Source of the DNA: SAR86 cluster bacterium
GTDB lineage: Bacteria > Pseudomonadota > Gammaproteobacteria > Magnimaribacterales > Magnimaribacteraceae
Length of the DNA: 64,000 bases
Assembly: GCA_022447065.1 (NCBI GenBank)
Contig: JAKUUM010000007.1
Span: 1-64,000 of the forward strand
Reading direction: 5' to 3'
The stretch's first letter is position 1. Every line of letters starts with the position of its first letter. Below, piece after piece: positions 32,362 to 32,563 of this stretch. Below the pieces are notes generated by a model that did not search any database, was not told the origin of the DNA, and was given only the letters and a program-made list of their open reading frames with translations. The translations under genes were made by a program, and so were the position numbers.

Positions 32362-32376
32362 TTTTAACTAAGTTTA

Positions 32377-32410
32377 CTGAAAATAATCTCTTTGAGAATG
32401 GTATCTTCAG
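32377..32410 (-). promoter_or_regulatory. Hairpin just before leuA start
   Basis: On the minus-strand RNA CTGAAGATA (32410-32402) pairs with TATTTTCAG (32385-32377) including one G-U, with an inner TCTC/GAGA stem. It ends 15 bases before the leuA ATG. There is no U run after it, so it is not an intrinsic terminator; it might act on translation or as part of the leader switch. Confidence 0.4.
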
Positions 32411-32439
32411 TCTAATTAGAGATATTATTAGATCTAAAT

Positions 32440-32526
32440 TTATAGAGATGAACCCGGTTTACTCTGAATTACAGAGACCGGGCTAATAAGTCGAATGCTT
32501 AAAATGTTCAATATCACCAAAAACAT
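32440..32526 (-). CDS. Putative leuA leader peptide (28 aa, branched-chain rich)
   Basis: A 28-codon frame lies upstream of leuA on the same strand, starting MFLVILNILSIRLI and ending in Leu-stop. Twelve of the first 20 residues are Leu, Ile or Val (Leu at 3, 6, 9, 13; Ile at 5, 8, 11, 14, 20; Val at 4, 17, 19), as expected for an amino-acid-sensing leader, and its length equals that of E. coli LeuL. The ATG lies eight bases after the predicted -10, so the mRNA would start at or within about three bases of it and no Shine-Dalgarno is possible. Translation is inferred; no homologue search was possible. Confidence 0.55.
   Translation of the reverse strand: MFLVILNILSIRLISPVSVIQSKPGSSL
32453..32482 (-). 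promoter_or_regulatory. GC-rich hairpin inside the leuA leader
   Basis: The arms CCCGGT and ACCGGG (6 bp) enclose CTCTG/CAGAG (5 bp) with a TAATT loop and a three-base bulge. It covers codons 15-25 of the predicted leader peptide, so a ribosome moving through would melt it. Neither strand has a following T run, so it is not a classical terminator. Confidence 0.55.
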
Positions 32527-32528
32527 GG

Positions 32529-32549
32529 TTGCGCAGCATATCTACGCAA
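32529..32549. promoter_or_regulatory. Inverted repeat over the leuA promoter -10
   Basis: TTGCG and CGCAA are separated by 11 bases and straddle the -10 box and start site. The T-N11-A geometry is typical of LysR-type operators. No regulator gene is adjacent, so the binding protein is unknown. Confidence 0.35.
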
Positions 32550-32563
32550 GCTAGAAGGGTCAA
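32535..32563 (-). promoter_or_regulatory. Sigma-70 promoter of the leuA leader
   Basis: On the minus strand TTGACC (32563-32558) and TATGCT (32540-32535) are separated by exactly 17 bases. The GC-rich bases after the -10 (GCGC) resemble a stringent discriminator. The predicted start is about 32529-32527, at the leader ATG. Confidence 0.65.

Follow-up and report, generated by a model that had tools for sequence, protein, structure and literature searches.

A probable leucine-responsive leader peptide for leuA, operating without an intrinsic terminator, in a family of SAR86 bacteria

In the enterobacterial leu attenuator (leuLABCD; Rfam RF00512, Leu_leader), the leucine codons of a leader peptide precede leuA and a hairpin overlaps the end of the peptide's reading frame. 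In Actinobacteria, leuA is preceded by the LEU element, or LeuL1 leader, which encodes a short leucine-codon peptide and has no Rho-independent terminator (Seliverstov et al. 2005, PMC1262725; PMC8079986). The LeuL1 of Streptomyces lividans is a leaderless leader peptide of leuA, also terminator-free (PMC8079986). Alternative RNA structures over the LEU leader, and pairing of the leader with the translation start of leuA, have been proposed (PMC1262725; PMC8079986). A pseudoknot is a further feature of the LEU element. The ilvB-OMG and ilvB-II uORF motifs combine a short in-frame uORF, branched-chain codons and structured RNA before ilvB (PMC10272879), and in Sinorhizobium meliloti the mRNA of the trpL leader peptide carries its AUG at the 5' end (PMC7298713).

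The closest known relatives of the SAR86 module described here are the leaderless, terminator-less leuA leader peptides of Actinobacteria. As in the LEU element, a leucine leader peptide is found upstream of leuA with no terminator. The two differ in several respects. The LEU element carries a run of leucine codons, whereas the SAR86 leader has an Arg-Leu pair. The base stem between leucine codons and Shine-Dalgarno sequence in the LEU element is unsupported in SAR86, where in three genera (g3, g5 and g7) it is the leader's first codons, not leucine codons, that are complementary to the leuA start. The Actinobacteria also belong to another phylum. Judged by sequence, the SAR86 module is of the same kind as the known leaderless leuA leaders, with a different codon signature and a different pairing. 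With the enterobacterial attenuator it shares leucine codons before leuA and a hairpin over the ORF end, but it has no terminator/antiterminator pair, no Shine-Dalgarno sequence for the peptide and no Rfam match. The ilvB-OMG and ilvB-II motifs are similar in placing a structured-RNA uORF before a branched-chain amino-acid gene; they lie upstream of ilvB rather than leuA, and the window has no Rfam match to them. The S. meliloti trpL mRNA resembles the SAR86 leader in its 5' end at the AUG, as predicted here, but concerns tryptophan and transcription attenuation.

The window, the whole 64,000-nt stretch of DNA that we analyzed, comes from a SAR86 genome of about 1.55 Mb. The leuA locus within it has the following layout:

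32558..32563, minus strand: -35 element TTGACC, the same hexamer in 31 of 31 relatives
32535..32540, minus strand: -10 element TATGCT, with a 17-nt spacer from the -35; transcription predicted to start at the ATG or no more than 2-3 nt from it
32440..32526, minus strand: leader ORF of 28 codons, MFLVILNILSIRLISPVSVIQSKPGSSL, with its ATG at 32526, 8 nt past the -10
32488..32493, minus strand: candidate control codons CGA CTT (Arg12 and Leu13, codons 12-13), recognized by conservation and codon rarity
32453..32482, minus strand: GC-rich hairpin with 6-bp and 4/5-bp stems and, on the 3' side, a 3-nt bulge, from fold and covariation
32378..32409 (approximate), minus strand: second, weaker hairpin before leuA, with no U-tract; present in the window's genus, not conserved family-wide
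30679..32361, minus strand: leuA, 2-isopropylmalate synthase of the PRK03739 type with a LeuA_dimer domain, from domain matches

A preliminary description of this DNA had pointed out the promoter, the 28-codon frame opening 8 nt after it, the GC-rich hairpin over the distal codons and the second hairpin before leuA, and all of these are present. The leader has, as described, 12 Leu, Ile or Val among its first 20 residues, with Leu codons TTG, TTG, TTA and CTT; a further Leu codon, CTA, is codon 28. The description also noted the lack of a U-tract terminator and a possible departure from enterobacterial leu attenuation. We found no terminator-like site between the leader ORF and leuA in the window's genome and none conserved among its relatives, and Rfam gives no Leu_leader match. 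The neighboring gene (window positions 32600-32989, plus strand) had been called holD. Its adjacency to rimI makes this name plausible, but it has no Pfam or NCBIfam match; we observed only a sub-threshold match to PilO.

Within one genome, each of these features is individually weak. Of the window's 1800 ATGs, 21 (~1.2%) have a promoter this good 5-9 nt upstream, and at least 12 Leu, Ile or Val are found in 5 of its 696 open 20-codon ATG stretches. The leader in the window sequence folds better than shuffled sequences with z = -2.9. Doubt about a chance origin is removed by the layout in 31 genomes, the frame test and the covariation of the hairpin, which are given below.

We searched the LeuA loci of 35 genomes of the same family. 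The module, consisting of the promoter, an ATG 6-8 nt after the -10, the rare Arg-Leu pair CGA-CTK and a hairpin 8 nt later, is kept in 31 of the 32 genomes with an intact leuA start, always at leuA. Among the remaining four, G015 has leuA without the module, G010 contains only a LeuA fragment, and G011 and G031 yielded no LeuA. The -10 is strongly conserved. Its distance to the ATG, 6-8 nt in all 31 relatives, leaves no room for a leader Shine-Dalgarno sequence, and the 5' UTR predicted from this distance is at most 2-3 nt in every one. Based on the promoter spacing at these 31 loci and at seven others outside SAR86, we infer leaderless initiation. The spacing between ATG and hairpin is also fixed, at 44 nt in all 31. 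According to the preliminary description, relatives with an interrupted small frame beside an intact leuA would count against a leader. No relative has such an interruption; one locus (L020:1834-1953, in MAG G009) has ATA in place of the ATG with the other module parts intact, and G015, like the other SAR86 families, lacks the module as a whole. A covariance-model search found no further copies in the window's own genome.

Conservation of the reading frame was analyzed for codons 1-18 in 19 representatives below 90% identity by permuting alignment columns. No in-frame stops were observed, compared with 7.9 +/- 2.0 expected (0 of 2000 permutations as low), and the other two frames contain 65 and 16 stops in the same representatives. 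By this test, the leader frame is under selection. The peptide core, L-R-L-(T/I)-x-P-(V/A/I)-(S/L/F), is conserved with exceptions. Leu13 is invariant in the 31 genomes (CTG in 18, CTT in 12 and CTA in one), and 30 of them have CGA as codon 12. In the window's codon usage, CGA makes up ~6% of Arg codons, and CTG and CTT make up ~6% and 23% of Leu codons. Leu is also found at codon 11 in most relatives, and a run of four Leu in g4 only. The first 20 residues of the relatives' leaders contain 7-12 Leu, Ile or Val, the high richness of the window's leader being peculiar to its genome. Thus, the peptide is branched-chain-rich, as first described, in the window's genome but not family-wide, where what holds is a conserved Leu codon after a rare Arg codon. 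Leader length ranges from 18 to 32 codons across relatives; the C-terminal part varies because the stop codon falls within or beyond the hairpin.

The first hairpin is supported by compensatory changes, which the preliminary description proposed to look for in relatives. RNAalifold and pair counting show 98% of cells paired and five pairs changed on both sides. The covariation score is 0.207, compared with 0.106 +/- 0.011 for shuffled alignments (0 of 500 as high), and when the hairpin position is slid as a control, the paired cells fall to 27-53%. Counted from the first base of the Leu13 codon, the hairpin starts 8 nt downstream; its distance from CGA is 11 nt. The second hairpin is unconserved in the family and is missing in g2 (L006), where only ~40 nt separate the first hairpin from leuA.

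Outside the family, we found the module in a few distant bacteria. Rfam searches at gathering and relaxed thresholds gave nothing relevant. A covariance model of the module matched only the window's own genome among 369 gammaproteobacterial genomes, and its strong matches in SAR86 (E below 1e-7) are confined to the window's family. Applied to leuA loci from other bacteria, the model identified Sneathiella glossodoripedis, Alphaproteobacterium UBA6062 and Alkalilimnicola ehrlichii (E 0.006-0.04). A motif scan of leuA loci added L051, L053 and L070, and a refined model applied to Pseudomonadota gave one new leuA-linked match (G273/L173) and three others with no LeuA nearby. A DNA-pattern search of 399 Pseudomonadota genomes returned eight matches besides the window, none in a leader-like context, a number similar to that of the reversed-pattern control. 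The seven loci upstream of leuA in Alpha- and Gammaproteobacteria (L039, L040, L041, L051, L053, L070 and L173) encode peptides of the L-R-L type, including MMKIDQLSGLLRLISPVL, MTYANRLLGLLRLTGPAL, MRNTRFEKLLRLSNPAS and, translated by eye, MPIRTCALLRLSSPAS. CGA is exactly 11 nt from the hairpin in all seven, and the length from ATG to CGA differs by whole codons. A promoter matching 8-10 of 12 positions ends 5-9 nt before the ATG; equally high scores are found at 0.4-3.6% of ATGs per locus. Because the ATG was picked in frame, the promoter, not the frame, is the independent evidence in these seven loci. Some of these leaders, such as those of Alkalilimnicola and G273, use CTA-CTA-CGA. By eye, five of the loci (L039, L040, L041, L053 and L173) appear to carry, between their first leader and leuA, another leader-like ORF in tandem, which ends in RLxxGRR or similar and is followed by a hairpin of its own. 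In the open-access literature, we found no report on SAR86 leuA leaders or on this leader in Proteobacteria.

Taken together, the locus has the features expected of a ribosome-mediated leader: a selected short ORF directly upstream of a biosynthetic gene, and a conserved Leu codon beside an RNA structure. We suggest that the module switches leuA in response to leucine through its leader peptide, that it works without an intrinsic terminator and that its output is most likely translational; we consider this reading as a whole likely to be correct. Confidence is high for the assignment to the leader-peptide class and moderate for the translational output, which is modeled on a pairing seen in g3, g5 and g7 and absent in g1. 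The selected frame, the spacing and the distance between control codon and hairpin likewise support the amino-acid-controlled regulation through a leaderless peptide that the preliminary description had put forward, function being deduced here from sequence. In the proposed mechanism, transcription starting at the AUG, or no more than 2-3 nt from it, would allow 70S ribosomes to load straight onto the 5' end of the RNA. The pace of the ribosome over the rare CGA-CUN pair (Arg12-Leu13) would be the readout of Leu-tRNA charging, and we infer that leucine is sensed by pausing at Leu13. A ribosome that waits at Leu13, 8 nt ahead of the hairpin, should extend into the hairpin base; an unhindered ribosome would continue to the stop codon inside or past the hairpin. 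In g3, g5 and g7, stalled and queued ribosomes on the leader would break the leader-leuA pairing and expose leuA.

In these three genera, leader nucleotides 4-13 can pair with the leuA start over 7-10 bp, with the first leader codons AUUUUAGUC facing the leuA start GACUAAAAU. This complementarity, found in three genera, points to translational control. Neither g1, the window's genus, nor g4 has it. Codons 2-4 of leuA (ACT AAA ATA) in g3, g5 and g7 are, at synonymous sites, the three-codon window of the gene with the lowest entropy over conserved residues (0.24 bits, first of 258); since constraint at a gene start has other causes too, this freezing is support, not proof. Cognate leader-leuA duplexes are not better than non-cognate ones (912 of 5000 permutations as good), and by duplex energy the leader often pairs equally well elsewhere in the locus. 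Masking leader nucleotides 1-49, as a stalled and a queued ribosome would, lowers the predicted cost of opening the leuA start by ~2 kcal/mol in g3, g5 and g7 (in g7, the mean falls from 7.3 to 5.2 kcal/mol) and hardly changes it in g1 or g4; in g1 the opening cost is low and barely differs between states. Two other arrangements were rejected. A single ribosome at Leu13 leaves the leuA start closed in the folds, where opening takes another ribosome queued behind it. Pairing of the leader with the Shine-Dalgarno sequence does not favor cognate partners, and complementarity to it is confined to some g7 leaders. We also observed that the leuA start codon is UUG in nearly all of L007-L032 (g3, g5 and g7) and that codons 2-6 are almost frozen synonymously.

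A bolder version, which we regard as doubtful, is that these loci represent an undescribed class of translational attenuator shared by Alpha- and Gammaproteobacteria, in which the leaderless ORF is the sensor and, in at least three SAR86 genera, its first codons act as an anti-start for leuA. Ribosomes queued between the 5'-terminal AUG and the Leu codon ~36 nt downstream would then unmask leuA directly.

The same leader peptide could instead feed a Rho-dependent output, with a departing ribosome exposing unstructured RNA to Rho and a stalled ribosome or an altered fold preventing this. Termination by Rho stays a rival because Rho is encoded in the window's genome. The absence of an intrinsic terminator also suits it, and, needing no leader-leuA pairing, it fits g1, g2 and g4, whose downstream parts are short or unlike. 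However, the ~40 nt between hairpin and leuA in g2 are short for Rho loading, and by inspection the RNA downstream is rich in A and U and shows no conserved C-rich stretch. We consider a Rho-dependent output unlikely.

Alternatively, the conserved unit could be an RNA structure or a DNA site for a regulator, with the ORF incidental. The hairpin and some nucleotides (CGACT and the promoter) are conserved beyond coding need, and the LEU element of Actinobacteria has been proposed to bind a protein (PMC1262725), but the strong in-frame constraint, a frame open in all 31 genomes and whole-codon length changes in the distant homologues make this very improbable. Classical transcription attenuation by alternative antiterminator and terminator hairpins is scarcely probable: the first hairpin over the ORF end does resemble the 1:2 pause hairpin of trp, his and leu attenuators and the leader folds better than shuffles, but no hairpin with a U-tract precedes leuA in the window's genome, and the second hairpin is unconserved and missing in g2.

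If the module is a leucine-responsive leader-peptide switch, one of the ocean's most abundant lineages, with a streamlined genome of ~1.5 Mb, has a cis-acting leucine sensor in some of its members, the others having lost it or never had it. The leaderless, terminator-less leuA leader would extend from Actinobacteria to Proteobacteria, and the fixed codon-to-hairpin distance would make the ribosome-stalling model directly testable in reporters. The leader is dispensable, as neither G015, which represents one genus of the same family, nor any of the other SAR86 families sampled has it. In two of these families, the members sampled have short spacers before leuA and no module, and the spacer is short in G015 too. 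In G015 (L033), TATAAT lies directly before leuA, and several genomes of family f2 (within L114-L153, from other SAR86 families) have a TATAAT-like box close upstream of the gene. This suggests simple promoter-only control of leuA in these genomes.

Beyond the loci described above, three leuA upstream regions of Rhizobiales (L076, L082 and L101) encode leader-like peptides ending in LLLLGLIRGCRV and a stop codon. Each appears by eye to be accompanied by a hairpin laid out like that of the SAR86 module, with a 6-bp and a 4-bp stem and, on the 3' side, a 3-nt bulge. These peptides and hairpins suggest a broader class of leuA leaders.
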